The notes beneath the pieces were generated by a model. That model saw only the letters and a list, made by a program, of their open reading frames with translations, did not search any database and was not told the DNA's origin. Both the position numbers and the translations under genes were made by a program. Positions 1,851 to 44,923 of a stretch of DNA of 46,753 nucleotides are shown here, in pieces; positions within the stretch are counted from its first letter, which is position 1; each line of letters starts with the position of its first letter. Source of the DNA: Clostridia bacterium (lineage in GTDB: Bacteria > Bacillota > Clostridia > Oscillospirales > CAG-272); NCBI GenBank assembly GCA_017501245.1, contig JAFVXI010000009.1, forward strand, positions 1-46,753. The letters run 5' to 3'.

Positions 1851-1851
1851 T

Positions 1852-2865: not shown

Positions 2866-2881
2866 ATACACGGAGGAAGGC

Positions 2882-5285: not shown

Positions 5286-5716
5286 AGCTTTACATTTTGA
5301 ACGGTCCTAACCTCAATATGCTCGGTATAAGAGAGCCCGACCACTACGGAACGACGACCTATGAGGATCTATGCGAGATGATCCGAGAGCATTGTGAGGA
5401 CCTCGTGGTCGAGTGCGTGCTGAGGCAGACGAACCACGAGGGCGAGCTTGTCGATTATATACAAGAGGCATACTTCGAGGATGCCGACGGCATAGTTATC
5501 AACCCCGGCGCATATACGCACACGTCGATAGCCATTCTCGACGCCGCAAAGGCAACGAGGCTGCCGCTCGTCGAGGTCCACATCTCGAAGGTTGAGGAGC
5601 GCGAGGCTTACAGGCAGGTCAGCTATATAAGAGAGGCAGCCATAGCCACGATAACCGGCAAGGGCACGGCGGGCTACCTTGAGGCGATAGACCTCCTATG
5701 CGTCAAAAAGCGATAA
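5282..5716 (+). CDS. aroQ: Type II 3-dehydroquinate dehydratase
   Basis: Third shikimate step, dehydrating 3-dehydroquinate to 3-dehydroshikimate. The 144 residues fit the small dodecameric type II enzymes: NGPNLNMLG near the N-terminus, a Tyr in DHYG, QTNHEGELVD, NPGAYTHTS and EVHISKVEERE. The ATG at 5282 overlaps the aroEK stop (ATGA) and has TTAGGAG about 10 bp upstream. A TTG two codons earlier is also in frame but less likely. Confidence 0.95.
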   Translation: MKLYILNGPNLNMLGIREPDHYGTTTYEDLCEMIREHCEDLVVECVLRQTNHEGELVDYIQEAYFEDADGIVINPGAYTHTSIAILDAAKATRLPLVEVHISKVEEREAYRQVSYIREAAIATITGKGTAGYLEAIDLLCVKKR

Positions 5717-5767
5717 ATCACGGCACCCGTGTCAAATAAAGCGATTATAACCATTAAGGAAGAAGCT

Positions 5768-7838: not shown

Positions 7839-7892
7839 AAAAGCAGATCAGACACCAAATAAGCAAACAATAATTTACACAAGGATAAGCAA

Positions 7893-18527: not shown

Positions 18528-18581
18528 ACTTTCCTCCATTAATTAGATCTTGCGGTTTGGTTTTCATTTTCTTTCGGTTAA

Positions 18582-18610
18582 ATTATAGCTTATTTTCGCT
18601 TGATTGTCAA
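18582..18610 (-). promoter_or_regulatory. Promoter of the fucose-isomerase-like gene
   Basis: Minus-strand TTGACA (18605-18610) and TATAAT (18582-18587) with a 17-bp spacer. Its -35 lies about 40 bp from the -35 of the divergent promoter. Confidence 0.8.
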
Positions 18611-18649
18611 TACGGCTTTTTTTCATATTTAAAATTTATATGATTGTGC

Positions 18650-18678
18650 TTGACAGCGTGGGTGAATGATGCTATAAT
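18650..18678 (+). promoter_or_regulatory. Promoter of the ceramidase-like gene
   Basis: TTGACA (18650-18655) and TATAAT (18673-18678) with a 17-bp spacer, 39 bp before the start codon. Confidence 0.85.
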
Positions 18679-18717
18679 GGGGGCGAAAAATTCAGGGCGC
18701 AAGCCTAAGGAGGAGCT

Positions 18718-20202: not shown

Positions 20203-20240
20203 TTGACTTTTATATAATATAAATGTAAATAAAAGAATAC

Positions 20241-20288
20241 AAAAAAGAACGGATGCGGGCTTTTGTGCCTGCGTCCGTTCTTTTTTAT
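20241..20288 (+). terminator. Terminator after the ceramidase-like gene
   Basis: A 16-bp stem with one T-G pair (20241-20256 and 20271-20286), starting AAAAAAGAACGGATGC and ending in a T-run. Confidence 0.9.
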
Positions 20289-20388
20289 TTCGGTATAGTG
20301 AAGGTTAGAAATCGCCTAGAGATGCCGATGGCGGTAGAGTCAATGCCCTGATGAGCCACCGGTCATAATAGCGCCTCCACGACACGTC

Positions 20389-21786: not shown

Positions 21787-21787
21787 A

Positions 21788-26559: not shown

Positions 26560-26576
26560 TATTTCTCTCCTTTTCA

Positions 26577-30597: not shown

Positions 30598-30610
30598 ATC
30601 CGTTCCTCCT

Positions 30611-32368
30611 TTAGTCAATATAAAAATCGAAGGGGCCATTGATGGTGAATACCTTCATTTTTCCGTCGACCTCTGCGCTTACTATCAGTGCGCCGTCGAT
30701 GGAGATGAGTTCGCCGTCAGCCGCATTATCCCTCACGCGGAGGATGAGCTCGCCCTCGGCGTTAAAGAAGGACGTGACCTCGGTGTCATAGTTGACGTAG
30801 ACGCGCACTCCGTCCTCGGATAAGATCATGCTCATACCCTCCTTGCCGTCGTCGATGAGCTCGAGCTTTCCGCTCTTCTTATCAAGCTTGTAGATCTCGT
30901 GTACGGGCATATCGCCTAGCATAGCAAGAGGATTTTCCTTCGCGAGGTAGATATCGTTGCCAATCGCTACGGCCTGAGCCATTCCACTCTGATACTCCTC
31001 GCTCTCAAGGTCGATGACCAGCTTGTTATCCTTCTTGGTATATACTCCCGTATGGGTGACGTAGTGGGTGTCGGTCTCGCCCTCGAAGTTGGTGGGATAG
31101 ACGAAGGTTATCTCGCCTGCCCAGTTAAAGTGGCATATACGGGAGGAGCCGTCGATAAGTACGTAGCCCTTGTAGCCGTTTTCGTCCGCATCAAAGATGG
31201 AATTGAAGCTCGAGGACTCGATGAGATGCCTGTTAGGAAGGGTGTAGACCCTATCAAGGTCGTTCGAGAGAATGACGTACTCCATCGTTCTGCCAAGTCG
31301 GCCGTCCTCGATGGGGACGAGGAACGCCTGGTTGTCGTATCCCTCGGCAAGCCTGAAGGCGAAATCGCCGTCCTCGTCGTGAGAGTAGCCCGCCTCAAAG
31401 CCTCTGATGAGGTAGTCGAAGTCAAGCTCGTTTACCGTGCCGTCTATGTAGGACATGATCTTGGTTCTCAGATCGAGCTTGTAGATCTCCTCACCCTGCA
31501 CGTACTCGAAGTCATACTCCTCGCCGTCCTCTACGTGGACGCACTCCTGGATGAGGACGTTGCCGTCGTTAAGCACGTGGATGTGAGGCGAGATGATCGA
31601 CTCGGTGCCTGCTGACACGGTGCCCTCGGGGAAGCTGTACTTAGCGGAGGCGATGCCGTGATGATCGTAGACCAGAATGACCTGACTCATAGCCTCGAGA
31701 TCGAACTCCCATGTGTAGAGATAGCCGAAATACTCCGCCTCAAATTCGAAGTAGCTCTCGTAGTTGCCGTCACGGTAGGTCTTTGCAACGTCGAGCGGTA
31801 TCTCTCTTAACACCTTGAGCTCGCCGCTGACCCAGATGAGCCTGCCGTCAGCCTCGATGAGAAACAGGTTTCCGACCTCCTCTACCTCGAGGTCGTCCTC
31901 CTCAAGATAGCTGGCGATGAGCGATGCATGATAGTCGCCGTTTATAAGATAGTAATAGTAGCGAGGCTCGTATTCCGTGATGCCGTACTCATCCTCGCCC
32001 TTGTTGATATACTCGGTGGTCTTTATCATGGGATAGCTCGAGATATCGTATTCTATCTCTCTGTAAGCGTTCTTTGCATTATAGTACTTCGTCTGCTCAA
32101 AGACCACTCGGTTTTCATCGTAAACGTCGTAGATCTTAACGACCGACTCGAGGTCGCCGTCGGATCTGGTCTTTTCGGTTTTCAGAGCTAAAATACCGTA
32201 ATCCCTGTTGACGCCGATGATCTCGCCATCAAGCTCGCTGAAATCCTCAGCGGTTGCCTCGGGCTCGAACACGAAGCATTCAGGAACGCTCTGTCCGGCG
32301 CCGCACGAGCTGATGGCAAGAGCCATAACGAGCACGAGCAGCAGCAAGAAGATTCTCTGTTTTTTCAT
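30611..32368 (-). CDS. Unidentified lipoprotein D (585 aa), first of four paralogues
   Basis: No named family recognised. The signal peptide ends in LAISSC, then an acidic, strand-rich extracellular part with many Asp, Glu and Tyr. It carries the DGNVLIQECV motif followed by DGEEYDFEYVQGEEIY, aligning with the same segment in A and C. The start at 32368 has AAAAGGAG upstream; the open frame extends 21 codons further with no such site. As first gene it lies behind a consensus promoter. The four proteins together could form or decorate one surface assembly, but that is inference from operon structure and relatedness. Confidence 0.75.
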   Translation of the reverse strand: MKKQRIFLLLLVLVMALAISSCGAGQSVPECFVFEPEATAEDFSELDGEIIGVNRDYGILALKTEKTRSDGDLESVVKIYDVYDENRVVFEQTKYYNAKNAYREIEYDISSYPMIKTTEYINKGEDEYGITEYEPRYYYYLINGDYHASLIASYLEEDDLEVEEVGNLFLIEADGRLIWVSGELKVLREIPLDVAKTYRDGNYESYFEFEAEYFGYLYTWEFDLEAMSQVILVYDHHGIASAKYSFPEGTVSAGTESIISPHIHVLNDGNVLIQECVHVEDGEEYDFEYVQGEEIYKLDLRTKIMSYIDGTVNELDFDYLIRGFEAGYSHDEDGDFAFRLAEGYDNQAFLVPIEDGRLGRTMEYVILSNDLDRVYTLPNRHLIESSSFNSIFDADENGYKGYVLIDGSSRICHFNWAGEITFVYPTNFEGETDTHYVTHTGVYTKKDNKLVIDLESEEYQSGMAQAVAIGNDIYLAKENPLAMLGDMPVHEIYKLDKKSGKLELIDDGKEGMSMILSEDGVRVYVNYDTEVTSFFNAEGELILRVRDNAADGELISIDGALIVSAEVDGKMKVFTINGPFDFYID

Positions 32369-32402
32369 GTTGTTCTCCTTTTCAGAATTAGGGGTCAATT
32401 CG

Positions 32403-32431
32403 ATTATAGTATACGTGCGGTTTTCTGTCAA
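32403..32431 (-). promoter_or_regulatory. Promoter of the four-lipoprotein operon
   Basis: Minus-strand TTGACA (32426-32431) and TATAAT (32403-32408) with a 17-bp spacer, 35 bp before the lipoprotein D start. Confidence 0.85.
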
Positions 32432-32740: not shown

Positions 32741-32821
32741 CATATTAATAGAAGATAGCGCAAAAACACCGCTGATATGAAAAAAAGTTCACGCCGAGAG
32801 CGTTTTTTTACGAATAAAACC

Positions 32822-32850
32822 TTTACAAACCGACATTATTGTGATATACT
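32822..32850 (+). promoter_or_regulatory. Promoter of the CofE-like gene
   Basis: TTTACA (32822-32827) and TATACT (32845-32850) with a 17-bp spacer, followed by the GGAGG-preceded ATG at 32894. Confidence 0.7.
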
Positions 32851-32893
32851 AAAGTGTAATTTTGTTTTTGGACTGAAAGCGGAGGTAATAGCT

Positions 32894-34087
32894 ATGAGTC
32901 GTATGGTTGGTACGGTTTCACGCGGCGTGCGTGCACCCATTATTCGTCAGGGTGATAACATCGTTGATATAGTTACCGAGTCCGTGCTTGCTGCCGCAGA
33001 GGCAGAGGGCTACGGGATCAGGGACAGAGATATCGTCGCTATGACAGAGGCGATCGTTGCCAGAGCGCAGGGAAACTACGCTTCGGTTGACGATATTGCG
33101 GCGGACGTTTACGACAGATTTGGCGGCGAGACAGTCGGCGTTATCCATCCCATCCTCTCGAGAAATCGCTTTGCCATCTGCTTAAGGGGCATCGCAAAGG
33201 GTGCGAAAAAGATCGTGCTTATGCTCTCCTACCCCTCCGACGAGGTTGGAAACCACCTCATCTCGCTCGACGAGCTTGACGAAAAGGGCATTGACCCCTA
33301 CCGCGACGTGCTTTCGCTCGAGAGATACCGTGAGCTTTTCGGCTATGGCAAGCACCGCTTCACAGGCGTAGATTACGTTGAATATTACGAGAGCCTCATC
33401 CGTGAGGCAGGCGCGGAGGCGGAGATAATCTTTGCTAACGACCCGAGGGCGATCCTCCCCTACACCGCAAGGGTGCTCAACTGCGATATACACACCAGAA
33501 GAAGGACCAAAAGGCTGCTCCTTAAGGCGGGCGCCGAGATAGTCTGCGGACTTGACGAGATCCTCTCCTCTCCTAAGGGCGGCTCGGGCTACAACGAGCA
33601 CTACGGCCTGCTCGGCTCCAACAAGGCGACCGAGGACACCGTTAAGCTCTTCCCCCGTGATTGCCAGCCCGTGGTTGACGCCATCCAGGCTAAGATCAAG
33701 GCGGCAACGGGCAAGACCGTTGAGGTCATGGTCTACGGCGACGGAGCCTTCAAGGACCCCGTAGGAAAGATCTGGGAGCTTGCAGACCCCGTGGTTTCCC
33801 CCGCTTACACCAAGGGTCTTGAGGGAACGCCCAACGAGCTTAAGCTCAAGTACCTTGCGGACAACGAGTTTGCCGAGCTTTCGGGCGAGGAGCTTAAGGA
33901 CGCCATCAAGGCGAAGATCCACGAGAAGGACGGAAGCCTCGTCGGAAACATGGCATCCGAGGGAACGACGCCGAGACAGCTGACCGACCTTATCGGCTCG
34001 CTCTGCGACCTGACCTCCGGCTCGGGCGATAAGGGAACCCCCATCATCCATATCCAGGGCTATTTTGATAACTACACGACCGAGTAA
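32894..34087 (+). CDS. Coenzyme F420-0:L-glutamate ligase-like (CofE family) protein
   Basis: A 397-residue protein similar to the CofE/FbiB-N amide ligases, which add glutamate to a phosphorylated flavin-like acceptor using a nucleoside triphosphate. The pattern is seen in GDNIVDIVTESVLAAAEAEG, DRDIVAMTEAIVARAQGN, HPILSRNRFAICLRGIAKGAKKIVLMLSYPSDEVGN and VYGDGAFKDPVGKIWELADPV, split here with extra length against archaeal CofE (about 250 residues). No other F420 gene is in the window, and most Clostridia lack F420, so the acceptor is probably different; folate has been proposed for some relatives. ATG at 32894 has GCGGAGG upstream; the frame runs 39 codons further back without one. Monocistronic. 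Confidence 0.72.
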   Translation: MSRMVGTVSRGVRAPIIRQGDNIVDIVTESVLAAAEAEGYGIRDRDIVAMTEAIVARAQGNYASVDDIAADVYDRFGGETVGVIHPILSRNRFAICLRGIAKGAKKIVLMLSYPSDEVGNHLISLDELDEKGIDPYRDVLSLERYRELFGYGKHRFTGVDYVEYYESLIREAGAEAEIIFANDPRAILPYTARVLNCDIHTRRRTKRLLLKAGAEIVCGLDEILSSPKGGSGYNEHYGLLGSNKATEDTVKLFPRDCQPVVDAIQAKIKAATGKTVEVMVYGDGAFKDPVGKIWELADPVVSPAYTKGLEGTPNELKLKYLADNEFAELSGEELKDAIKAKIHEKDGSLVGNMASEGTTPRQLTDLIGSLCDLTSGSGDKGTPIIHIQGYFDNYTTE

Positions 34088-34347: not shown

Positions 34348-35193
34348 TTATCCCTTAGCGTATTCCTTCGGGGTCTTGCCCGTGTGCGCCTTGAAGGTTT
34401 TGATAAAGTGCGGCACGTCGGTGAAGCCGACGGCAGAGGCAAGCTCCGTTGTCGAAAGCTCGCCGCCCGAGATGAGGTCTATTGCGGCGTTTATGCGATA
34501 TTCGATCAGAAAGGCTCTGACGGTCATGCCCGTGTGCGCCTTGAAGAGCCTGTTCATATACGAGGGATTGAAGTGGAGGGCGGCGGCTATGTCGGTGTTT
34601 TTGATGGGCTTGGTGTAGTTTCGGCCTACGTAGGCTATTATCTCACGGACGCCCGCACGGCTGCCCGGCTCTACGCCCTGCTGATCCTGGCAGCGCCTGG
34701 CTATGGCAATTATCACGGCCTTTAAAAGTGCGCCGAGATATTCTACGGCGTAGGGGCGTCTTAAGGAAAACTCGCTGACGATGCTCATTATCCTGCCCTC
34801 GAGCGACGCCGCATCGTAAAGCACGACGGGCCGGCTGAGCGCCTCCGCATCCGAAAAGCAGATATCGGGCTCGAGCACGTAGCTGACCAGCTCCGCCCTC
34901 TCTACGTGGAAGGATCGGGTTATATTTTCGTGCGCTCTGTGATAGTCAAAGTTGATGGCGAGATAGCGCATATCGCCGACCTGCCATATGTATTCCGTGC
35001 CCGAGCGCAGGAGCACCACCATGCCGGGACGGATAGGATAAGGCACGCCCTCAACGACGATCTGCCCCGTGCCTCCCATGATATAAAAGAGGCGGTGATC
35101 CCTCGTGCGCAGTCTGTACGAAACGTACTTTCCGAGCGACATCCTCGACATTATCGCCTGTCTGACAAAGGGCTTTATATCATCAAGCCTCAT
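34348..35193 (-). CDS. AraC family regulator with N-terminal cupin domain
   Basis: A 281-residue one-component regulator. The N-terminal half (about 1-150) is a sugar-sensing cupin (RLFYIMGGTGQIVVEG, PYPIRPGMVVLL). The C-terminal 100 residues hold two helix-turn-helix motifs: NTDIAAALHFNPSYMNRLFK and TTELASAVGFTDVPHFIKTF, ending in the family's GKTPKEYAK. It is divergent from the oxidoreductase/glycyl radical cluster and is the obvious candidate activator responding to its substrate. The ATG at 35193 is preferred over 35199 because GAGG is 8 bp from it and only 2 bp from the other. Confidence 0.88.
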   Translation of the reverse strand: MRLDDIKPFVRQAIMSRMSLGKYVSYRLRTRDHRLFYIMGGTGQIVVEGVPYPIRPGMVVLLRSGTEYIWQVGDMRYLAINFDYHRAHENITRSFHVERAELVSYVLEPDICFSDAEALSRPVVLYDAASLEGRIMSIVSEFSLRRPYAVEYLGALLKAVIIAIARRCQDQQGVEPGSRAGVREIIAYVGRNYTKPIKNTDIAAALHFNPSYMNRLFKAHTGMTVRAFLIEYRINAAIDLISGGELSTTELASAVGFTDVPHFIKTFKAHTGKTPKEYAKG

Positions 35194-35231
35194 CGACATT
35201 ACCTCACTTTCGCTTTTCTTCCTTTAAATAT

Positions 35232-35260
35232 ATAATACCACAGCGGCGATATGATTTCAA
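35232..35260 (-). promoter_or_regulatory. Promoter of the AraC-type gene
   Basis: Minus-strand TTGAAA (35255-35260) and TATTAT (35232-35237) with a 17-bp spacer. Confidence 0.65.
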
Positions 35261-35302
35261 GCCAAAAGTACAAAAAACACAATTTTCGGTAGTATTTTTC
35301 CA

Positions 35303-35331
35303 TTGTCATGAGCGAGGGCGTCTGCTAGAAT
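35303..35331 (+). promoter_or_regulatory. Promoter of the glycyl radical cluster
   Basis: TTGTCA (35303-35308) and TAGAAT (35326-35331) with a 17-bp spacer. The weaker boxes fit a promoter that needs the divergent AraC-type activator. The 170-bp intergenic region shows no clear long repeat that I could assign to AraC. Confidence 0.65.
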
Positions 35332-35366
35332 AGAGATGAAAAAACAACAAACGGAGGAGTTCACTT

Positions 35367-36572
35367 ATGAACAAAAAACTGACACTTGCGATCATCGGCT
35401 GCGGCAAATTTGCAAAGCACTTTGCCAAGCTCTTTATGGCGCATCCTTACGTTGAGAAGGTTTACGCCTGTGATCTTATCAGAGAAAAGGCTGAGGAATT
35501 CCGCGACAACTACGGCACAGAGATCATCGACACCTACGAGGAGGCTCTCGCATCTCCCGAGATCAACGGCATTCTCAATTTCACCGAGCGTCATATCCAC
35601 GGCGACATCGTTATCAGAGCCCTCAAGGCGGGCAAGCACGTTTATTCCGCTGTTCCCATGGCGTCCAAGGTCGACGAGTGCGGTGAGATCGTCAGGCTCG
35701 TAAAGGAGACCGGCCTCATCTACTTCATGGCTGAAACCTGCTATTACTATCCCTGCGCTATGTACTGCCGCGAGGAATATAAAAAGGGCACCTTCGGCGA
35801 CTTCTGCTACGCAGCGTCGCAGTATTATCACAATATCGACAACATAGGCTACGGCAAGACCGCAGAGCGCGGAATGCCTCCCCTCCTCTACCCCACTCAT
35901 TCGACTGCAATGGTGCTTTCGGCTATGGACACCTACGCCACCGAGGTCTCATGCTTCGGCTATGCTGACAAGAAGGGCGACCCCGCCTTCAAGAAGGACG
36001 GCAACGCCTGGGAGAACGAGTTTGTCAGCCAGTACGTAATGATGAGACTTGCGAACGGCGGCGTCGCAAGAGTTACCGAGGCACGCTCCTTCGGCTGGAA
36101 CAAGCCCTCCTCCTACATCTCGGGCTTCTACGGCACTAAGGCAGGCTATGAGTTCTCGAACGCACAGCACCTCCTCGTAGAGAAGGACTTTACCACCGAG
36201 AAGGAGCACGTTACCGTTCGTGACGTCTCCGACTACGTTAACCCCGAGGATATGGTCGCCGCAAAGGGCGAGCCCGACTTCAAAGAGAACGTTGCTAACG
36301 GAATGTGGCAGTGGTCGAGCCCTGCGGCGATCCAGGCAAACGACGTCGCAAGACTTCCGAAGGAGTTCGACGGCCTCGTTTCGGGTCATATGTACAGCCA
36401 TAAGCTCCTCGTCGACGACTTCTGCCGTGCGGTATACGAGGGCAAGCAGCCCTACCTCAACGCTTGGCGTGCGGCTCGCTACACCGTGCCCGGTCTCGTA
36501 GCGATCGAGTCCTGCAAGATGGGCGGAAAGGTCCTGCCCGTGCCCGATTTCGGCATGCCCGAGGACTGCTGA
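35367..36572 (+). CDS. Gfo/Idh/MocA oxidoreductase 1, lacking the EKP lysine
   Basis: A 401-residue NAD(P)-dependent oxidoreductase of the Gfo/Idh/MocA family: Rossmann loop AIIGCGKFAKHFA (9-21), DLIREKAEEF after the second strand, AGKHVYSAVPMAS (88-100), then a beta-sheet substrate domain. Family members usually have EKP at this place, with the Lys aiding hydride transfer; here the triplet is AVP (95-97). PTHSTAMV later carries a conserved-type His. Either the chemistry differs or the protein binds rather than oxidises. First gene of the cluster; a terminator-like hairpin follows it, so it may be made in excess. Substrate unknown. Confidence 0.85.
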   Translation: MNKKLTLAIIGCGKFAKHFAKLFMAHPYVEKVYACDLIREKAEEFRDNYGTEIIDTYEEALASPEINGILNFTERHIHGDIVIRALKAGKHVYSAVPMASKVDECGEIVRLVKETGLIYFMAETCYYYPCAMYCREEYKKGTFGDFCYAASQYYHNIDNIGYGKTAERGMPPLLYPTHSTAMVLSAMDTYATEVSCFGYADKKGDPAFKKDGNAWENEFVSQYVMMRLANGGVARVTEARSFGWNKPSSYISGFYGTKAGYEFSNAQHLLVEKDFTTEKEHVTVRDVSDYVNPEDMVAAKGEPDFKENVANGMWQWSSPAAIQANDVARLPKEFDGLVSGHMYSHKLLVDDFCRAVYEGKQPYLNAWRAARYTVPGLVAIESCKMGGKVLPVPDFGMPEDC

Positions 36573-36584
36573 TTTCTATAAACG

Positions 36585-36631
36585 AAAAAGACCGCAAGCG
36601 ATTTTTGCCACACGGCACCCTGCGGTCTTTT
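36585..36631 (+). terminator. Intra-cluster terminator or attenuator hairpin
   Basis: Arms AAAAAGACCGCA and TGCGGTCTTTT (36585-36596 and 36621-36631) with a 24-nt loop. Only four T's end it, so read-through to the following genes is likely and no separate promoter was seen. Confidence 0.55.
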
Positions 36632-36635
36632 ACCT

Positions 36636-36684
36636 ACGTGCGTGCGCACGTGAATTATTATGCGTGTGCGAAACCGGCACACGC
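36636..36684 (+). repeat. Two GC-rich hairpins before the second oxidoreductase gene
   Basis: ACGTGCG / CGCACGT (about 36636-36651) and GCGTGTGC / GCACACGC (36662-36669 and 36677-36684) stand back to back, 38 bp before the TTG start. They could stabilise the downstream mRNA after processing or bind a regulator. Confidence 0.5.
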
Positions 36685-36721
36685 CTCGTAAGCAAGAACA
36701 CTTTTTGAGGAGATGAGCATT

Positions 36722-37723
36722 TTGAACGCTTGTATCGTTGGCTACGGAGCGGTCGGCCCCGTTCACGCCGCCGCAGTTGACGCAATAGACGGCGCAAAGG
36801 TCTACGCCGTTTGCGATATTGACCGTGGGCGTGCCGAGCTTTGCAAAGAAAAATACGGCTCTTTCATCTATTCCGACTTCGACGAGATTCTTAAGGACGA
36901 AAATATAGACGTCGTGCATATCTGCACTCCGCACTATCTGCACGGCAGGATGGCAAAGGCCGCCCTCCTTGCGGGAAAGCACGTTGCGCTGGAAAAGCCC
37001 GTGGTGCTGACGATGGCTGAGCTTGAGGAACTTCGTGAGATAGCGAGAAGCTCTGCCGGCAGGCTGGCAATCATGCTGCAAAACCGCCGCAACGCTTCTA
37101 TAACCGAGCTGAAGCGCATCACCGAGAGCGGCGAATACGGCGAGCTGAAGGGCCTTATCGGCGGAGTTTACTGGAAGCGCGACGACGCCTACTACGCTCA
37201 GGGCGAATGGCGAGGCAGGTGGCAGACCGAGGGCGGCGGAGCTATCATCAATCAGTCGATACATATGCTGGATATGATGATCCACCTTTCGGGTAGGATC
37301 CGCAATATGCGCTCTTCTATCAACCGCTGGAAGGTTGAGAGCATTGAGGTCGAGGACACGGCGAGCGCACTCATAGAGTTTGAGAGCGGAGTGACGGGTA
37401 TCTTCAACGCCACTAACTGCTTCTTTACCGACGAGCCGTATATGCTCGAGGCAAGATTTGAAAGGGGCAAATTCAGATACGCTGACGGAAGGCTCTACCG
37501 CATCGACGAATGCGGAGCCGAGGTCATAGCGAAAGACACGGGCGTCATGGTAGGAAAGTCCTATTGGGGCTCCGGCCACTTCTCACTTCTTCACGATTTC
37601 TACTCCTCTATTGGGGGCAAGGATGCTCCCTACACCACCGTCGAGGACGCCTATCTGACGATGAAGGCGGTATTTGATATCTACGGTGAGGCAGGCGTGC
37701 CCTGCCCTAATAATCTTCATTAA
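36722..37723 (+). CDS. Gfo/Idh/MocA oxidoreductase 2
   Basis: A 333-residue NAD(P)-dependent oxidoreductase with the normal family pattern: CIVGYGAVGPVHA near the N-terminus, CDIDRGRAELC, HICTPHYLHG, and KHVALEKPVVL with the EKP lysine present. GGGAIINQSIHMLDMM contributes the usual active-site His and Asp-side residues. Such enzymes oxidise a sugar or cyclitol hydroxyl, often at C3. The TTG at 36722 is chosen because GAGGAG lies 9 bp before it; the in-frame ATG at 36713 directly touches that site. The next gene, the activase, begins 20 bp later. Confidence 0.86.
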   Translation: MNACIVGYGAVGPVHAAAVDAIDGAKVYAVCDIDRGRAELCKEKYGSFIYSDFDEILKDENIDVVHICTPHYLHGRMAKAALLAGKHVALEKPVVLTMAELEELREIARSSAGRLAIMLQNRRNASITELKRITESGEYGELKGLIGGVYWKRDDAYYAQGEWRGRWQTEGGGAIINQSIHMLDMMIHLSGRIRNMRSSINRWKVESIEVEDTASALIEFESGVTGIFNATNCFFTDEPYMLEARFERGKFRYADGRLYRIDECGAEVIAKDTGVMVGKSYWGSGHFSLLHDFYSSIGGKDAPYTTVEDAYLTMKAVFDIYGEAGVPCPNNLH

Positions 37724-37743
37724 TTACGCATGGAGTACATAAA

Positions 37744-38643
37744 ATGACAACTTTAGTTACCGATATACAGCGTTTTTCCCTGAGTGACGGCGACGGCATC
37801 CGCACGACGGTGTTCCTTAAGGGATGCAATATGAGATGCACCTGGTGCCACAACCCCGAGACCATCTCGAGGACGCCCGAGCTGATGTTCTATCGCTCTA
37901 AGTGCATAGGCTGCGGCAAGTGCTTTGAGGTCTGCCCCGTGGGAGCGCACAAGCTCATAGACGGCGAGCACATCATCGACAGAGAGCTTTGCAAGAGGTG
38001 CGGCAAATGCGCCGAGGCATGCTACGCCGAGGCTCTCGCCACCTGCGGCAAGGAGATGAGCGTCGATGAGGTCATGGCCGAGGTCAGACAGGACAAGGCG
38101 TATTACGACAACTCGAACGGCGGCGTTACGATCTCGGGCGGCGAGGTGCTCTGCAACCTTGAGTTTGCCACCGAGCTTGCCCAGAGATGCAAGGCGGAGG
38201 GCATTTCCTGCGCAATAGAAACCAACCTCTCCTTCCCCTTCGAGACGATAGAGCCTCTCATCCGTGAGCTTGACCAGGTTATGTTCGACATCAAGCTCTT
38301 CGACGGCGAGGCACACAAGAAGCACACCGGCATCCCGAACAAGACCCTGCTCGAGAACGCATACAAGCTCGATAAGCTCGGAATTCCCCTGACCGTCAGA
38401 ACTCCCCTAATCCCCGGGGTCACCGACACGGAGGAAAATATTTCTGCTATTGCGGAATACATCAGCGGCATGAAGAACCTCGTGCGCTACGAGCTCTTGA
38501 ATTTCAACCCCCTCGGAGAGAGCAAATATCGCGGGCTCGACAAGGAAAACCTTCACGAGAGCGCAAGGCCGCTCGCTGAGGATAGACTCGCAGGCCTCAA
38601 GGCGTGCGCTGAGGCCAAGGGCATCACGGTGAAGATCGTTTAA
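37744..38643 (+). CDS. Glycyl radical enzyme activating enzyme (radical SAM)
   Basis: A 299-residue radical SAM activase that reductively cleaves S-adenosylmethionine and abstracts a hydrogen from the partner's glycine. Key parts: DGDGIRTTVFLKGC leading into the radical SAM cluster Cys28-x3-Cys32-x2-Cys35, an inserted pair of 4Fe-4S ferredoxin motifs (Cys54/57/60/64 and Cys83/86/89/93), and ISGGEVL for SAM binding. The double ferredoxin insert is typical of activases for glycyl radical dehydratases and lyases and is absent from the pyruvate formate-lyase activase. It lies 14 bp before its evident partner. Acts in the cytoplasm, only without oxygen. Confidence 0.93.
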   Translation: MTTLVTDIQRFSLSDGDGIRTTVFLKGCNMRCTWCHNPETISRTPELMFYRSKCIGCGKCFEVCPVGAHKLIDGEHIIDRELCKRCGKCAEACYAEALATCGKEMSVDEVMAEVRQDKAYYDNSNGGVTISGGEVLCNLEFATELAQRCKAEGISCAIETNLSFPFETIEPLIRELDQVMFDIKLFDGEAHKKHTGIPNKTLLENAYKLDKLGIPLTVRTPLIPGVTDTEENISAIAEYISGMKNLVRYELLNFNPLGESKYRGLDKENLHESARPLAEDRLAGLKACAEAKGITVKIV

Positions 38644-38657
38644 GGAGGAAAAGCACG

Positions 38658-40874
38658 GTGAGTAAGATAAAATTTATAAACGAATTTGACAAGAATAAGA
38701 CCTTTACCTACGACGAGCGTATTGCCCTCCTCAGAAGGAGAAAGGTCGCCCAGACCGAGGAAAAGGCGAGGGCAGGAGGCGCCAACGAGGACGACTACGG
38801 CCTGATCGTTCAGGACGAATTCCACTACAAGCTGAAGCCGAACCACGAAAACGGCTCGATCTACGGCTACTCCGCCTGGCGTGAGAACTACTGCGCCATA
38901 CTGAAGGAGCATCCGCTCTACTGCGATCCGCTCGACGCCTTCGTGGGCAAGGGCTTCCTCTTCCTTGAGAGGCTGAGACCCGCAGACAAGAAATGGAACC
39001 CCGCTTATCCCTTTGACGAATTACAGGCGCTCTTTACTAAATACAACGTTATTTCCGGCATCGACAACTGCCATCACTTCACCCCCGATCTGCAGATCGG
39101 CTTCGACCTCGGATGGGGCGGAATATTAAGGAAGCTCCGTGAGCAAAGAGAGCTCCACGACGAGAGCCACCACGAGTTCTACGACGCTGAGATAGCCGTC
39201 GTTGAGGCGATCATCGCCTTCTTGAAGAGGATCTCGGGTGAGCTTGCCGAGCTTGCCGAGATCGAGGAAAACCCCACCTTGAAGGAAAACCTCAAACAGA
39301 TGGCTAAGGTAAACCTCAGGGTTGCCGACAATCCCCCCGAGACCTTCAGAGAGGCTGTGCAGTGGATGTGCTGGTTCTCGATGCTCTCGAGGACCTACAA
39401 CCGAGGCAGTGCGGGCGGCCAGCTCGACGAGATGCTGAGGCCCTACTACGAAAGAGATATCGAGAGGGGCATCCTGACCGACGACGAGGCGGTGTTCTAT
39501 CTCGCCTGCCTCTTCCTTCAGGACAGCCGCTACTTCCAGCTTGCGGGCCCCGATGAAAACGGCAAGGATATGACCTCCAAGATCTCCTATCTCTGCCTCG
39601 ATGCGGCGGATAAGATCAACATCGCCTGCAACCTCACGATCAGAGTTCACGAGGGGCTTGACGAGGAGTTCTTCAAGAAGTCCGTCGCCTACCTCTTCAA
39701 GAACAAGCAGGGCTGGCCCAGATATTCCTCCGACTCCGCTCTTGCAGAGGGCTTTATGAAGTGCGGCTACTCGCTTGAGCTTGCGAGAAAGAGGGTTGCC
39801 GCAGGCTGCCACTGGATGTGCATCCCGGGTATGGAATACACGATGAACGACACCGTCAAGATCAACCTCGCAAGAGTTTTCGAGGTGGCGTTCTACGAGA
39901 TGATGGAGGACGAGAGCTGCAAGCCCTCTATGGAGGAGCTTTGGGCAAGATACGAGAAGCACCTTAAGATCGCCGTTGACGCAACCGGAAACGGCATTAT
40001 GCATCACCTTAAGTATCAGTCCAAGACGCAGCCCGAGCTCATCCTCAACCTCTTCCAGCACGGGCTGATCGAAAAGGGCGTTAACATCACCGACGGCGGC
40101 GCAAACTACTACAATATGTGCGTTGACGGAAGCGGAATCGCCGTGGTTGCGGACAGCTTTGCGGCGCTGGCACAGCGCATAGAGCGCGAGGGCAAGCTCT
40201 CCTTCGGAGAGATCACCGCTCATATGAAGGAAAACTTCGAGGGCAAGGACGGCGAATATATAAGACAGCTGCTCCAGCACAGCGAGAGATACTGCGGCGG
40301 TGACACGCTCGGCGACCTCTACGCAAAGCGAGTCAGCGACCTCTACACCGCCCTCGTGCGTGACTTGAACGTCCAGCACCCCGGCATAAACTTTATCCCC
40401 GGCTTCTTCTCCTGGTCTAACACCATAGGCCTCGGAGAGACCGTCGGCGCAACGCCGAACGGCAGGCGCTACGGCGAGCCGATCAACCACGGAGCAAACC
40501 CGAACGGCGGATTCAGACGCGACGGCGCCGTGTCCTCTATGTGCAACTCCATCGGCATGATCCAACCCGGCTACGGAAACTGCGCTCCGGTCCAGCTTGA
40601 GTTCGACCCCGGCATCGCAAACGATGAGGAGGGCGTCGAAAAGATGGCGGCGATGATCAAGACCATCATGCAGACGGGAAACACCCTCTTAAACATCAAC
40701 ATCATCGACGCAAACAAGATCCTCGAGGCGCATAAGGACCCCTTCAAGTATCCTGACCTCGTCGTCAGAGTTACCGGCTTTACAGCCTTCTTTGCTATGC
40801 TCTCCCCTGAGTTCAGGCAGCTGGTAGTTGACAGAGTTACCTCGGTCAACGGAAGCAAAATCGAGTGTGAATAA
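38658..40874 (+). CDS. Glycyl radical enzyme of unknown specificity, atypical active site
   Basis: A 738-residue member of the pyruvate formate-lyase-like glycyl radical family. The C-terminal glycyl loop is VRVTGFTAFF with the radical Gly707; the thiyl Cys is Cys384 in AAGCHWMCIPG. Family segments such as GATPNGRRYGEP, and a Pro-rich region before the Cys, are in the normal order. Dehydratases and lyases of this family usually have GCVE, the Glu acting as base; pyruvate formate-lyase has two adjacent cysteines. Here His385, Trp386, and Cys388 stand instead, so neither class fits. It is somewhat shorter than the common 780-850 residues. GTG start with AAGGAGG 9 bp upstream. Substrate unknown; the neighbours suggest a sugar or polyol derivative. 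Confidence 0.9.
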   Translation: MSKIKFINEFDKNKTFTYDERIALLRRRKVAQTEEKARAGGANEDDYGLIVQDEFHYKLKPNHENGSIYGYSAWRENYCAILKEHPLYCDPLDAFVGKGFLFLERLRPADKKWNPAYPFDELQALFTKYNVISGIDNCHHFTPDLQIGFDLGWGGILRKLREQRELHDESHHEFYDAEIAVVEAIIAFLKRISGELAELAEIEENPTLKENLKQMAKVNLRVADNPPETFREAVQWMCWFSMLSRTYNRGSAGGQLDEMLRPYYERDIERGILTDDEAVFYLACLFLQDSRYFQLAGPDENGKDMTSKISYLCLDAADKINIACNLTIRVHEGLDEEFFKKSVAYLFKNKQGWPRYSSDSALAEGFMKCGYSLELARKRVAAGCHWMCIPGMEYTMNDTVKINLARVFEVAFYEMMEDESCKPSMEELWARYEKHLKIAVDATGNGIMHHLKYQSKTQPELILNLFQHGLIEKGVNITDGGANYYNMCVDGSGIAVVADSFAALAQRIEREGKLSFGEITAHMKENFEGKDGEYIRQLLQHSERYCGGDTLGDLYAKRVSDLYTALVRDLNVQHPGINFIPGFFSWSNTIGLGETVGATPNGRRYGEPINHGANPNGGFRRDGAVSSMCNSIGMIQPGYGNCAPVQLEFDPGIANDEEGVEKMAAMIKTIMQTGNTLLNINIIDANKILEAHKDPFKYPDLVVRVTGFTAFFAMLSPEFRQLVVDRVTSVNGSKIECE

Positions 40875-40904
40875 TTAAAAAATGTAAATAAAGGAGTACA
40901 TATC

Positions 40905-41684
40905 ATGTCAGAAGTTAAGATCGAATACGTAGACGTCGCCAAGAGCGGCACATGGTGTGAGGAGCTTTGCCGCGGTGAGATCAACGGCGCAAGACCCGTG
41001 CATCACAAGATCGCAGCAGGCGACAGCGTGCTTTTCGCTAAGGGCGTCGGCTACTATCATATCCTCATCCTCATCGACGGCTCCGCCGTCTACACCACCG
41101 ACGGCAAGGACTACGCCTTCGACGGAAGGACGACCTTCGTTTCTGCCCCCGACAAGGACCTCACCGTTAAGGCGAGCACCGACGTCCGCATCCTTGAGAT
41201 CCAGTGGGACGAGGAGGAGGGCGACGCCGCTGACCTCGTAGAATACAAGACCGTATTCCCCGTTGTCGTTCCCTATCAGGATTCCATTCAGTACATCGAC
41301 CCCAACAAGAGCGAAAAGACCATAAGCAGAATGATGATCCCCCACGAGATCATCCCGAGATTTACCATCGGCTCGGTCGAGTCCTACGGCTACGACCTCG
41401 TCAGACCTCACGCTCATCCTATGCTTGATCAGTTCTTCTACAGCTTCCCCGAGAACGATATGGAGGTCATCATCGACGGCGAGAAGTACAATATGAAGGG
41501 CGACGGCATCATGCACATTCCGCTCGGCTCCAACCACGGCGTTGAGGTTACCGGCGACAGACATATGCACTATATGTGGGTAGACTTTATGCCCGACAAG
41601 GAGGCAGGTCTCAAGAGACTAAACTTCAGCCACCGTCCCACCGGCACCGTGCGTGACTTCGCAAACGAGGATAAGACGAGATGA
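40905..41684 (+). CDS. Bicupin protein
   Basis: A 259-residue protein with two cupin domains, about 35-110 and 160-235. The second has a full metal-site pattern: His169 and His171 in RPHAHP, Gln176 in place of the usual Glu, and His211 in GSNHGVEV. The first lacks the histidines and is probably structural. It shares no obvious signature with a specific enzyme; candidates are a sugar isomerase or epimerase (KduI-like or related). It lies 30 bp after the glycyl radical gene and its stop overlaps the next ATG, so it very likely serves the same pathway. Confidence 0.75.
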   Translation: MSEVKIEYVDVAKSGTWCEELCRGEINGARPVHHKIAAGDSVLFAKGVGYYHILILIDGSAVYTTDGKDYAFDGRTTFVSAPDKDLTVKASTDVRILEIQWDEEEGDAADLVEYKTVFPVVVPYQDSIQYIDPNKSEKTISRMMIPHEIIPRFTIGSVESYGYDLVRPHAHPMLDQFFYSFPENDMEVIIDGEKYNMKGDGIMHIPLGSNHGVEVTGDRHMHYMWVDFMPDKEAGLKRLNFSHRPTGTVRDFANEDKTR

Positions 41685-42721
41685 GCATCTCGCTCAATCA
41701 CCCGATAAAGCTCCGTATGGCGACCGCCTGGAGGACCTACACGGGCGGCAGCAAGATAAGAGAGCTTCACGGCGAGGGTGGCACCGAGGATAACAACTTC
41801 CCCGAGGAGTGGATCATGTCCACCGTCAGAGCCAGAAACAGCGGCAGAGAGGATATCGTCGAGGGCATCAATATGCTCGAGGACGAGGATATCTCTCTCG
41901 CCGAGCTGATAGAGCGAGACCCCGTGTCGGCGCTCGGCAGAGAGCACAGCGAAAAATACGGCACGAGCCTCGGTGTCCTGGTCAAGATCATCGACTCAGC
42001 AGAGAGACTGACCGTCCAGGTGCATCCCACGAGGGAAAAGGCGATGTCGCTCTTTAATTCAAGGTTCGGAAAGACCGAATGCTGGCATATCATCGGCGGC
42101 AGAGAGATCGACGGTGAGGCGCCCTGCATTTACTTTGGCTTTAAGGAGGGCGTCACGAGAGAGAGGTGGAAGGAATGCTTTGATAAGCAGGATATCCCCG
42201 CTATGCTCGACTGCCTGCATAAATTCAACGTTGAGGCGGGCGAGACCTACCTCATCGAGGGGGGCATCCCCCACGCCATCGGCCCCGGCTGCCTCTTGAT
42301 AGAGATCCAGGAGCCGACCGACTACACCATCCGCACCGAGCGCACGACCCCAAAGGGGCTTGCCGTCGCAGACTTTATGTGCCATCAGGGCTTAGGCTTT
42401 GACCGTATGTTCGACTGCTTTGAATATAACGGCTACTCTGCCGAGGTAGTAAAGGAGAGATGGGGCATCAAGCGCCGCGGCGACGTCATCATCGACGGGG
42501 ACAGCACGGATATGTTCGGGCTTTCAATGACCGACGTTGACGGCGAGGTCGAGATCCTAGGCTCGGGCAGATTCAGCGGCGTATATATCCTCGAGGGCGA
42601 GGGCAGGCTCGACGGCAGAGCCGTGTCGCGCGGCGACCAGTTCTTTATCCCTGCCTCCTGCGAGAGCTTCCGCCTTGAAGGAAAAATGAAGCTGATCCGG
42701 TATTCCGGCCCGACGAGGTGA
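41681..42721 (+). CDS. Class I phosphomannose isomerase-like protein
   Basis: A 346-residue cupin-fold protein similar to class I mannose-6-phosphate isomerases, zinc enzymes that interconvert mannose-6-phosphate and fructose-6-phosphate. The zinc ligands are visible: Gln113 and His115 in VQVHPTRE, Glu133 in KTECW, His198 in GGIPHAIG; EIQEPTDYTIR follows, as in the family. The cluster context suggests it may act on a different, perhaps non-phosphorylated, sugar. The ATG overlaps the previous stop (ATGA at 41681-41684). A GC-rich 131-bp gap with a 14-bp palindrome follows. Confidence 0.82.
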   Translation: MSISLNHPIKLRMATAWRTYTGGSKIRELHGEGGTEDNNFPEEWIMSTVRARNSGREDIVEGINMLEDEDISLAELIERDPVSALGREHSEKYGTSLGVLVKIIDSAERLTVQVHPTREKAMSLFNSRFGKTECWHIIGGREIDGEAPCIYFGFKEGVTRERWKECFDKQDIPAMLDCLHKFNVEAGETYLIEGGIPHAIGPGCLLIEIQEPTDYTIRTERTTPKGLAVADFMCHQGLGFDRMFDCFEYNGYSAEVVKERWGIKRRGDVIIDGDSTDMFGLSMTDVDGEVEILGSGRFSGVYILEGEGRLDGRAVSRGDQFFIPASCESFRLEGKMKLIRYSGPTR

Positions 42722-42741
42722 CCACCTCGCTCCTCACCGCA

Positions 42742-42755
42742 CCGTGATATCACGG
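42742..42755. repeat. Perfect 14-bp palindrome between isomerase and TIM-barrel genes
   Basis: CCGTGATATCACGG is fully self-complementary and is the only clear structure in the 131-bp gap. It could be an operator, but no promoter boxes were recognised beside it. Confidence 0.5.
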
Positions 42756-42852
42756 ACGACCTGCCCACGGGCAAACCAGCTCCGCCACCAAGCCACAGAC
42801 GGCGCACACCGATGGAGCATTCCCAAACACAAAAAACAGAACGGAGAACAAA

Positions 42853-43647
42853 ATGAGATACGGTTTTTGCAAGGAATTTTCCACCCCTCTTAAGACCGAG
42901 GTGGACTACGAATTAATAAAGATGATCAAGGAGGCGGGCTTTGACTACGTTGAGATGCGTGCGATGCTCGTTGCGTCGCTCTCCGACGAGGAGTTCGAGA
43001 AGCTTTACTCGACCCTTAAGGAGCTGGAGCTTGACTGCGACTGCTGCTGCGCTCTCTTCCCGAGGACTATCAGGGTCACGGGCTCCGAGATCAACTACGA
43101 CGAGATCGAGGCGTATATCGAAAAGACCTTCTCGAGATGCGCAAGGCTCGGCGCAAGGAAGATCGTTTTCGGCTCCGCACCCGCAAGAGCCCTCGACGAG
43201 AACACCGACGAGGACACCGGCTATAAGCAGATATGCGAGGTCATCACGAGGGTCATCGTCCCTGCCTGCGAGAAGTACGGCATCACGGTGGTTATGGAGC
43301 CTCTTCGTGCCGACGCCTGCAACTTCATCAACACTCTCGCAGACGGCGCAAGAGTCGTAGAGACGGTAGACTCGCCCTCTATCCAGCTGCTCGCCGACAC
43401 CATCCATATGAACTCCAATGGCGACAACACCGACGATATCGTTAAGTATAAGGATATCCTCAAGCATATCCACATCTCCGAGCTTGCGAGAGTATTGCCC
43501 GAGGACGGATACAGCGACTACGTTGCCACCGTGCTTGACAACCTCGCTAAGATCGGCTACGAGGGAACGGTTTCCTTCGAGACCAAGAATGGCGAGGGCC
43601 TCTCGTCTATGAAGAAGGCGCTCGCATTACTTAAGACGAAAATATAA
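42853..43647 (+). CDS. Sugar phosphate isomerase/epimerase-like TIM barrel protein
   Basis: A 264-residue member of the xylose-isomerase-like TIM barrel family (tagatose epimerase, inosose dehydratase and IolE/IolI relatives). Four likely metal ligands occur at the ends of strands in standard order: Glu149 (VMEPLR), Asp182 (LLADTIHM), His207 (KHIHISE) and Glu243 (VSFETK). An unusual DCDCCC run lies at 61-66. Relatives work on keto sugars and keto-inositols, often downstream of Gfo/Idh/MocA dehydrogenases, which fits this cluster. Epimerase, isomerase or dehydratase cannot be decided. Confidence 0.83.
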   Translation: MRYGFCKEFSTPLKTEVDYELIKMIKEAGFDYVEMRAMLVASLSDEEFEKLYSTLKELELDCDCCCALFPRTIRVTGSEINYDEIEAYIEKTFSRCARLGARKIVFGSAPARALDENTDEDTGYKQICEVITRVIVPACEKYGITVVMEPLRADACNFINTLADGARVVETVDSPSIQLLADTIHMNSNGDNTDDIVKYKDILKHIHISELARVLPEDGYSDYVATVLDNLAKIGYEGTVSFETKNGEGLSSMKKALALLKTKI

Positions 43648-43675
43648 TAAAATAAAGAAAAAGGAAGGAATTATC

Positions 43676-44686
43676 ATGTCATTCAAAACCGCCATTATCG
43701 GCTGTGGAAGAACCGCTAACGAGCTTCACGGCCCCGTGCTTGAAAAGCACCCCGAATTTGAGGTTACCGCCATCTGCGACATCAACCCCGAGGCACTTGA
43801 GAAGTATTCTGCTCGCTTCCCCTCCGCTAAGAAGTACGTTGACTATCACACGATGTTAAACTCCGATGAGTTTGATTTTGCCGTCATTCTCACCTACAGC
43901 TACACGCACACCGCTATCGCACTTGACTTCATCCGTGCGGGCAAGAACGTCCTCATCACTAAGCCCTGGGCTATCACCACCGACGAGGCTGACTCCATCA
44001 TCAGCGCATCGAAGGAATACGGCGTGACCGTTATGCCCTTCATCCCCTGCCACGACGGCGCTGACGTCGTTAAGCTCAAGGAGCTTGTCAAGGAGGGTAA
44101 GATCGGTAAGGTGTTCAGAGTTTACCGTGCGCAGATGACCTTCGGCAAGCGCTCTGACTGGCAGACCCTCAAGGCTTATGCAGGCGGATATCTCAACAAC
44201 TGGGGCCCTCACCTCGTTGAGCAGGCTATGTGCTTCGTTGACGAGCCTATCAAGACCGTTTACGCACACAAGAGACAGGTCATCAACCCCGGCGACGCTG
44301 ACGATATGTTCTGCTCCACTCTCACGACCGAGAGCGGCGTCATCGTTCAGGTAGATCACAACATCATCTCCGACTACCTCCCCAACTGGGTAGTTCAGGG
44401 CGATAAGGGAACCATCTACGTCAAGGGCAACGAGATGGAGATCCACGAGATCTCTTACCCCGAGTCGAACGATCCTAACTGCTACAGAAGCGTCACCCAC
44501 ACCGAAAAGACTCACATCACCCTCGAGGGCAAGATCTTCGGCAACCACTACGAGATCTACACCATGATCGCAAACACCCTCAAGGGCAACCCCTACATCG
44601 TTTCTCTCGACTACGCAAGACACCTCACCGAGATCATGCAGTCTATCCATAAGTCTGCTGACGAGGGCGTTCTTGTAAAGCTTTAA
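43676..44686 (+). CDS. Gfo/Idh/MocA oxidoreductase 3
   Basis: A 336-residue NAD(P)-dependent oxidoreductase: AIIGCGRTANELHG at the N-terminus, CDINPEALEKY, and AGKNVLITKPWA (88-99) in which TKP takes the place of EKP, keeping the functional Lys96. GGYLNNWGPHLVEQAM carries the active-site His. Last gene of the cluster, 28 bp after the TIM barrel gene, with AAGGAAGGA before its ATG. It could re-reduce a keto intermediate or oxidise the substrate at a second position. It is clearly distinct from the other two, so the three are not recent duplicates. Confidence 0.87.
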   Translation: MSFKTAIIGCGRTANELHGPVLEKHPEFEVTAICDINPEALEKYSARFPSAKKYVDYHTMLNSDEFDFAVILTYSYTHTAIALDFIRAGKNVLITKPWAITTDEADSIISASKEYGVTVMPFIPCHDGADVVKLKELVKEGKIGKVFRVYRAQMTFGKRSDWQTLKAYAGGYLNNWGPHLVEQAMCFVDEPIKTVYAHKRQVINPGDADDMFCSTLTTESGVIVQVDHNIISDYLPNWVVQGDKGTIYVKGNEMEIHEISYPESNDPNCYRSVTHTEKTHITLEGKIFGNHYEIYTMIANTLKGNPYIVSLDYARHLTEIMQSIHKSADEGVLVKL

Positions 44687-44886: not shown

Positions 44887-44923
44887 AATCCATCATGGAC
44901 GAGAGTCTGTGATGGATTTTTCT
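44887..44923 (+). terminator. Terminator of the glycyl radical cluster
   Basis: A 9-bp stem AATCCATCA / TGATGGATT (44887-44895 and 44910-44918) followed by TTTCTTT. Confidence 0.75.

Follow-up and report, generated by a model that had tools for sequence, protein, structure and literature searches.

Glycyl radical enzymes of an apparently separate family, encoded with sugar-type oxidoreductases and isomerase-like proteins, point to an oxygen-sensitive route of sugar breakdown

The stretch of DNA analysed here (the window: 46,753 nucleotides, contig JAFVXI010000009.1 of the Clostridia bacterium assembly GCA_017501245.1, an uncultured clostridium of gut type) carries an operon in which a glycyl radical enzyme (GRE) and its activase are encoded together with three Gfo/Idh/MocA oxidoreductases (GfoA, GfoB and GfoC), a bicupin, a type I phosphomannose-isomerase-like (PMI-like) protein and an AP_endonuc_2 TIM barrel protein. 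The GRE apparently belongs to a separate, uncharacterised family, and the locus points to an oxygen-sensitive route of sugar breakdown without earlier description. The fold and the radical machinery of the enzyme are already known. We prefer, tentatively and with slightly less than even confidence, to read the operon as catabolic, for a sugar or sugar acid: the GRE would dehydrate a hexose or hexose acid by radical chemistry, and the isomerases would act afterwards. New GRE families have repeatedly uncovered unexpected reactions in anaerobes. Passages of two papers give examples of such reactions (PMC6386719, PMC6453916), and many abundant gut GREs have no known function according to a passage of a review (PMC11574389). 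If true, the new family would add a new kind of sugars or sugar acids to the substrates of radical enzymes, and the recurring operon makes the question accessible to ordinary anaerobic biochemistry. In a search of the open-access literature, no title or opening of an abstract among the papers listed describes this GRE with Gfo, cupin, PMI or mannosidase genes, which is no proof of absence.

Families were assigned with Pfam and NCBIfam profiles and their curated cut-offs. The window's GRE matches PF02901 (330 bits) and PF01228 (53 bits). In the family, collected as 94 loci (92 distinct ones, since the 94 include the window and two duplicate pairs), the thiyl cysteine at the position of Cys384 is present in every sequence, and T706 and G707 are invariant in the 77 of the 94 sequences that were aligned. 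In support of this assignment, a dedicated radical SAM activase adjoins the GRE gene; it scores 337 bits on TIGR02494 against a cut-off of 174 and has the CxxxCxxC motif plus two further cysteine clusters.

Within the superfamily, the GRE clears no curated GRE cut-off in NCBIfam: its best score is 273.9 bits against the 678.2 set for PFL2-3, and the scores against HypD (209 of 1100 bits) and CutC (182 of 1050 bits) are also under the cut-off. A maximum-likelihood tree was built from 40 of the 77 aligned family rows and 18 reference GREs. The branch between the 40 rows and the 18 is 3.1 changes per site long, has a support of 100/100 and was recovered in each of 200 bootstrap trees; since the tree has long branches, the position of the family among the other GREs is unsure. 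Inside the family part of the tree, the window's GRE groups with those of L031, L036 and L037 (L numbers designate loci throughout). The references are the 24 of 30 fetched loci that have a long frame, minus six that were family members or repeats of the window. They include CutC (L122), HypD (L123) and HpsG (L133), as assigned by NCBIfam, and contain no PflD, isethionate lyase, arylacetate decarboxylases or X-succinate synthases. An earlier note on this DNA, made from the letters alone, had proposed a candidate undescribed glycyl radical pathway; in line with this, the enzyme lies under the curated cut-offs and apart from the 18 GREs compared.

PflD/YbiW are sugar-phosphate lyases. A search with the single GRE sequence matched 36 distinct solved sequences, and the best of them was PflD (8yjo, 199 bits), as would be expected if the GRE were a diverged member of a characterised family, such as that of these anhydrohexitol-phosphate lyases, in an ordinary setting. 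We consider this very improbable: the enzyme is under every curated cut-off, stands apart from the 18 references (PflD not being among them) and lacks the glutamate discussed below, and no sugar kinase or phosphotransferase gene was found in the operon with Pfam.

The active site also sets the family apart. The residue two positions after the thiyl cysteine (Cys+2) is Trp in all 94 family sequences, the window and the two duplicate pairs counted, whereas in 12 reference GREs it is Glu in ten, Gln in one and Ser in one, the Ser row being pyruvate formate-lyase-like. For this comparison five more pyruvate formate-lyase-like rows, a type without the Glu, and one HypD-like row were excluded from the 18 references. 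The preceding residue (Cys+1) is His in 58 family sequences, Asn in 28 and Ser in 8. A profile of nine relatives aligned most of the barrel and placed GC[HN]WM over the GCVE of PflD, glycerol dehydratase and HypD. Note that the motif was partly selected for, since [IYV]A[VA]GC[HN]WM and VTGFTA[YF]F were the patterns of the genome scan. The 8 Ser-type loci are independent of this choice because Ser at Cys+1 cannot pass the first pattern; moreover, L018-L030 came from a whole-protein search, not from the motif scan, and have the Trp too. A passage of PMC6453916 assigns the deprotonation of the substrate hydroxyl in isethionate lyase to a conserved glutamate, and one of PMC6181972 places a Glu next to the Cys in two arylacetate decarboxylases as well. 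The Trp of the GRE family is therefore a departure from those groups.

His140 and Asp398 are kept: they are invariant in the 77 aligned family sequences and, in the profile of nine relatives, align with the active-site residues His164 and Asp447 of glycerol dehydratase. All 40 family rows have Arg245, Tyr247, Arg379, Glu393, His435, Glu460, Asp490, His611, Asp650 and Arg720 at positions where most of the 12 references differ. So remodelled an active site would be explained if the GRE were no eliminase and instead cleaved a C-C bond or acted as a radical isomerase or epimerase, a possibility favoured by the exchange of Glu for Trp and by the invariant residues just listed (Asp490 aside), which are rare in the references. 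We regard it as rather unlikely, in view of the retained H140 and D398 and of the family rows compared, where no second invariant cysteine as in pyruvate formate-lyase was found. For the dehydration that we prefer, other residues of the GRE would serve in place of the missing Glu.

Next, we analysed the neighbours of the GRE in the collected loci, taking the genes from our own gene calling, clustering them into families and building HMMs from the same loci. Within 10 kb, these broader profiles found an activase in 85 of the 92 distinct loci and some Gfo in 60; 48 loci had a bicupin, 41 a TIM barrel, 37 a PMI-like protein, 15 an FAD oxidoreductase and 13 a small cupin. The partners that the earlier note had grouped with the GRE thus recur with it. 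The commonest are the activase and then some Gfo, and no single Gfo is fixed. When just close relatives of the window's proteins were counted in the 94 loci (window included), the bicupin family was found in 47, the PMI-like family in 36, the TIM family in 14, and the GfoC, GfoA and GfoB families in 13, 9 and 3, respectively; as orthologues, then, bicupin and PMI-like protein recur more steadily than any other single family of partners. The idea that the operon is built around three Gfo enzymes was therefore partly right. The frequency of the loose Gfo family, second only to the activase, speaks for it, but GfoA, GfoB and GfoC are not a fixed set, their families reaching so few of the loci.

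Because many contigs are short, we also used the 47 loci whose contig extends 5 kb or more to either side of the GRE. All 47 have the activase, 35 a Gfo, 25 a TIM barrel, 23 the bicupin and 22 the PMI-like protein. The 23 bicupin loci of this kind contain the activase in every case, the PMI-like protein and some Gfo in 21 each, and a TIM barrel in 16. Gfo genes make up 104 of the 1035 neighbour genes, compared to 15 matches in the whole 1.94 Mb genome from which the window comes, 3 of the 15 being in the operon. In one locus, L024, a member of the GfoA family (64% identity) accompanies a GRE of a different clade. If the Gfo and TIM genes were an unrelated pathway merely adjoining a core of GRE and isomerases, the GfoA and GfoB families would recur as seldom as they do. 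This is improbable, however, as differing Gfo paralogues occupy 60 of the 92 distinct loci, with up to five in a single locus.

A TIM-Gfo fusion of about 630 amino acids (one member scanned) lies near the GRE in 12 loci. We tried this fusion (f8) as a fused orthologue of the window's TIM barrel protein and GfoC and rejected it, the aligned halves being 16-22% identical to the window pair; for that reason the fusion is an analogous, not an orthologous, pairing. A different fusion was seen in a Verrucomicrobia locus (L093, 12345-14633), where a fatty-acid desaturase/Rieske/reductase protein follows directly after the GRE, an oxygen-using type of enzyme adjoining an oxygen-sensitive one.

The partner proteins were compared with solved structures and curated families. 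Alignments comprised 27 of the 47 bicupins, 20 of the 36 PMI-like proteins, 9 of the 14 TIM barrel proteins and 8 of the 13 GfoC proteins, the last two with four fusion halves each. For the TIM barrel protein, the best solved relative is a 3-keto-D-glucoside 4-epimerase (6wn6), followed by D-tagatose 3-epimerases; on the equivalogs for D-psicose 3-epimerase and 5-keto-L-gluconate epimerase it scores 79.7 and 76.8 bits against 300, under the cut-off. GfoC has an unnamed oxidoreductase as its best solved match, and DgpA and sugar 3-ketoreductases were also matched. By family and nearest solved relatives, the operon therefore combines Gfo dehydrogenases with a TIM enzyme, as in the 3-keto-glycoside pathway. 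The 3-keto-disaccharide hydrolase family (PF06439) was not found in the operon and is present in 2 of the 94 loci.

The PMI-like protein scores under the manA equivalog cut-off (78.5 of 116.2 bits). It keeps metal-site residues of type I phosphomannose isomerases: Q113, H115, E133 and H198 are invariant in the 20 sequences, and H115, E133 and H198 align with H, E and H of 1qwr. In Pfam the bicupin matches Cupin_2 and AraC_binding only; it matches nothing in NCBIfam and neither a KduI nor an IolB profile, and a profile search of solved sequences found no relative (best E 0.015). It has the pattern HxH...Q...H in the second domain only, and this C-terminal cupin may bind a metal through H169, H171, Q176, H211 and H222.

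From these families, we infer that the Gfo and TIM proteins interconvert sugars through keto forms and that the cupin and the PMI-like protein are isomerases. Less support exists for the next two proposed steps, the dehydration of a hexose or hexose acid by the GRE and the conversion of its product by the isomerases, which are encoded directly after the GRE. In this reading, GfoC and the TIM barrel protein (and GfoA or GfoB) would act on the C3 of the sugar via keto intermediates, so that different sugars end in a single configuration; the GRE would dehydrate the resulting hexose or hexose acid by radical chemistry; and the bicupin and the PMI-like protein would turn the deoxy-keto product into an isomer that can enter central metabolism. 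The earlier note had proposed that a sugar, uronate or cyclitol is oxidised, isomerised and then cleaved or dehydrated by the radical enzyme. The neighbours fit a sugar or uronate theme, but the order of oxidation, isomerisation and radical cleavage is unsupported, and the window alone gives no substrate.

If the order proposed in the note is right, the Gfo enzymes would first make a 3-keto sugar, with the GRE acting on the keto form; a carbonyl adjoining the radical centre would then remove the need for the Glu, which deprotonates a hydroxyl in other eliminases and is absent from 94 of 94 GREs. The Gfo and TIM relatives are indeed 3-keto-sugar enzymes, 3-keto-disaccharide hydrolase family genes occur in two loci, and some Gfo is found in more of the distinct loci than either the bicupin or the PMI-like protein (60 against 48 and 37). 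Beta-elimination from a keto sugar, however, needs no radical, 32 of the 94 loci have no Gfo within 10 kb, and the bicupin and PMI-like protein are, as orthologues, steadier than any one Gfo. We consider this order unlikely, but because some Gfo is the commonest partner after the activase it remains a serious rival.

Genes near the GRE in other loci offered clues to the substrate of the preferred dehydration. In L056, L062 and L081, genes for UxaC, UxuA and a mannitol-dehydrogenase-family protein are consecutive with those for the activase, GRE, bicupin and PMI-like protein on one strand; UxaC and UxuA are above the curated cut-offs (one member of each scanned), and the mannitol-dehydrogenase-family gene is under that for fructuronate reductase (119.6 of 603 bits). 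TRAP solute-binding genes were found in 8 loci and putative DctM-like membrane genes in 10, all ten of the bicupin type. In L101 and L025 the GRE is followed, at a distance of one or two genes, by aldolases of the N-acetylneuraminate lyase superfamily that score under curated cut-offs. In 12 Bacteroidota loci of the set, a small cupin follows the GRE.

Mannosidase-type genes form a second group of clues. A GH47 gene stands beside the GRE module, on the same strand, in L105 (Flammeovirga aprica), L151 (F. kamogawensis), L152 (Persicobacter) and L117, whose GH47 protein is 70-75% identical to those of the other three. The 9.3 Mb genome of F. aprica has a single GH47 match, with coordinates that fit the gene at L105, and none was found in 14 control genomes. 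L077, L097 (with two) and L108 have GH92 genes at a distance of two or three genes from the GRE, and L151 and L152 carry, 5-8 kb upstream, GH130-type genes that score under curated cut-offs. Elsewhere, Paenibacillus L080 has an MGH1-like glycosidase gene two genes ahead of the GRE, L050 and L099 have 3-keto-disaccharide hydrolase genes at a distance of three or four genes from it, and Puteibacter L084 has an inositol set upstream, with an IolG-type gene above and an IolE-type gene under the cut-off. The clues do not all agree; a theme common to them is that hexoses and hexose acids, perhaps of manno configuration, are oxidised and isomerised.

Most speculative is a manno-configured substrate of the GRE, suggested by the alpha-mannosidases, GH130-type genes, mannonate dehydratase and PMI-like proteins around the GRE in different clades. 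On a broader view, which we hold to be possible but doubtful, an oxygen-sensitive pathway found in several phyla would dehydrate a free, unphosphorylated, manno-configured hexose or hexuronate without the Glu and pass the product to the metal cupin and the PMI-like protein; Gfo/TIM front ends would be exchangeable, and the substrate would be supplied by GH47/GH92 in Bacteroidota or by TRAP transport in Clostridia.

Several observations weigh against the preferred dehydration and its manno-configured extension. The 32 loci without a Gfo within 10 kb, some of them on short contigs, include 10 of the 12 small-cupin Bacteroidota loci. Nor are the isomerases universal: about half or more of the 92 loci lack the bicupin, and likewise the PMI-like protein. 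Moreover, the GH47 loci are related by descent, and GH92 is abundant, with 6-18 copies in the six Bacteroidota genomes searched; being common there, it counts less as a clue, and we rejected GH92 alone as proof of a mannose substrate because the genomes that hold it carry many copies. Mannose clues and uronate clues were found in different clades and may reflect more than one substrate. Finally, the invariant Arg245, Arg379 and Arg720 would suit a carboxylate and be a poor fit to free mannose.

The family is widespread but patchy. In the order of the source organism, 11 of 295 genomes have a match at E < 1e-150, its own counted, and the two other sampled genomes of its genus have none at that threshold. 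The genome scan gave 289 relatives; the best 80 of the 289 were kept and are labelled Clostridia, Spirochaetes, Kiritimatiellae, Lentisphaeria, Verrucomicrobia, Bacteroidota, Planctomycetes and one Paenibacillus. Clostridial holders come from ruminant and other guts, according to database labels. The gene is present in only 4 of 393 genomes of the order to which one Bacteroides-labelled holder belongs and, for one clostridial holder, in 2 of 145 relatives, the holder being counted each time. No GRE relative was found in viral contigs. Distant GREs occurred in 21 records of a phage collection, but for no record was a coverage of 80% of the query counted. In a plasmid collection 133 records matched; two (Flammeovirga kamogawensis and Persicobacter) are about 50% identical, and the others, among the 10 of 133 matches listed, 26-28%.

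The genome of Oligosphaera ethanolica (L153-L162) has 12 PFL-like matches. We rejected its GREs as further members of the family: of ten stretches, one is the known member, two gave no match at the threshold used and seven are 24-29% identical without the GCxW...PGxE motif, and are for this reason other, diverse GREs. In L076 (10106-13848) both the GRE and a Gfo gene are broken up into several open frames, through decay or sequencing errors, and other GREs are in pieces in the same genome.

The features of the window's operon are given in Table 1. GfoA to GfoC form one plus-strand run (35367-44686) with gaps, in gene order, of 140, 20, 14, 30, -4, 131 and 28 bases, and a purine-rich stretch resembling a ribosome site precedes every gene start. 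The gene set and the divergent AraC-family regulator that the earlier note had described were all found as open frames with the families it had named, and, as it had said, no microcompartment, kinase or aldolase families occur among the genes of 34348-44686 (Pfam, NCBIfam). In GfoA, Pfam matched the N-terminal Gfo domain and not the C-terminal one. Promoter- and terminator-like sites were barely above shuffled sequence (8 against 6.6; 14 against 10.7) and are weak evidence. Rfam gave no family at gathering score anywhere in the window. The source genome (37 contigs, 73% complete) has one copy of the GRE and two more distant GRE matches.

Table 1. Features of the operon and its flanks (positions in the window)
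Feature	Position	Strand	Remarks
AraC-family regulator	34348..35199	-	Divergent from operon; Pfam HTH_18; family in 10/94 loci, window counted
Intergenic promoter-like sites, both directions	35303-35331 (+), 35260-35232 (-), within 35232..35331		Pattern scan, weak evidence
GfoA, Gfo/Idh/MocA oxidoreductase	35367..36572	+	Pfam; closest solved relative DgpA; family in 9/94 loci
GfoB, Gfo/Idh/MocA oxidoreductase	36713..37723	+	Closest solved relative glucuronide-3-dehydrogenase (8tdi); family in 3/94 loci
GRE activase, radical SAM with two further cysteine clusters	37744..38643	+	TIGR02494 above cut-off; motifs
Glycyl radical enzyme (GRE)	38658..40874	+	PF02901, PF01228; Cys384 in GCHWMCIPGME, Gly707 in RVTGFTAFF
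Bicupin	40905..41684	+	Generic cupin matches only; H169, H171, Q176, H211, H222 invariant
Type I phosphomannose-isomerase-like (PMI-like) protein	41681..42721	+	Q113, H115, E133, H198 kept
AP_endonuc_2 TIM barrel	42853..43647	+	Closest solved relatives 3-keto-D-glucoside 4-epimerase (6wn6), D-tagatose 3-epimerases
GfoC, Gfo/Idh/MocA oxidoreductase	43676..44686	+	Family in 13/94 loci, window counted
Terminator-like hairpin 3' of operon, 14 pairs, T-rich tail	44887..44918	+	Pattern scan

Elsewhere in the window, a run of shikimate and aromatic amino acid genes (765-8930) encodes chorismate mutase/prephenate dehydratase, dehydroquinate synthase, chorismate synthase, EPSP synthase, prephenate dehydrogenase and DAHP synthase, and also a fused protein of shikimate dehydrogenase-like and shikimate kinase parts. 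About 12-18 kb from the operon, 17178-23083 contains a match to the C-terminal domain of L-fucose isomerase just below the curated cut-off, a GH88-type gene (20389-21786, with a weak GH47 match too) and a PGA_cap gene; a uronate link of these genes to the operon is possible. Four large adjoining minus-strand proteins occupy 24658-32431, at least two of the four with putative lipoprotein-like signals at the start, and Pfam matched none of the three that were scanned (24661-30597). At 32777-34087 this clostridium encodes a protein of the F420-0 gamma-glutamyl ligase family (PF01996, 188 bits).

Compared to known systems, the GRE shares with glycerol and propanediol dehydratases, CutC, HypD, isethionate lyase and HpsG the thiyl cysteine, the glycyl radical motif, a dedicated activase and the residues H140/D398. 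The Glu of these eliminases is Trp in the new family, and the GRE is under all their curated cut-offs. With PflD/YbiW it has in common the fold family, the closest solved match and a sugar-type context; the differences are GCVE there and GC[HNS]W here, and an operon free of sugar kinase and phosphotransferase genes. KduI and IolB are bicupin isomerases. The window's bicupin, which matches neither family, resembles them by architecture only, with two cupin domains and the HxH and His pattern in the second, and such an isomerase would suit a deoxy-keto product. The uronate pathway is represented by the UxaC, UxuA and mannitol-dehydrogenase-family genes that accompany the GRE core in L056, L062 and L081, although UxaC and UxuA genes are absent from the window's operon. 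Finally, the 3-keto-glycoside routes (DgpA, glucuronide-3-dehydrogenase and 3-keto-glucoside 4-epimerase) have relatives in the Gfo and TIM barrel proteins; the operon does without the 3-keto-disaccharide hydrolase family of those routes and adds to them a radical enzyme and two isomerase-type proteins.

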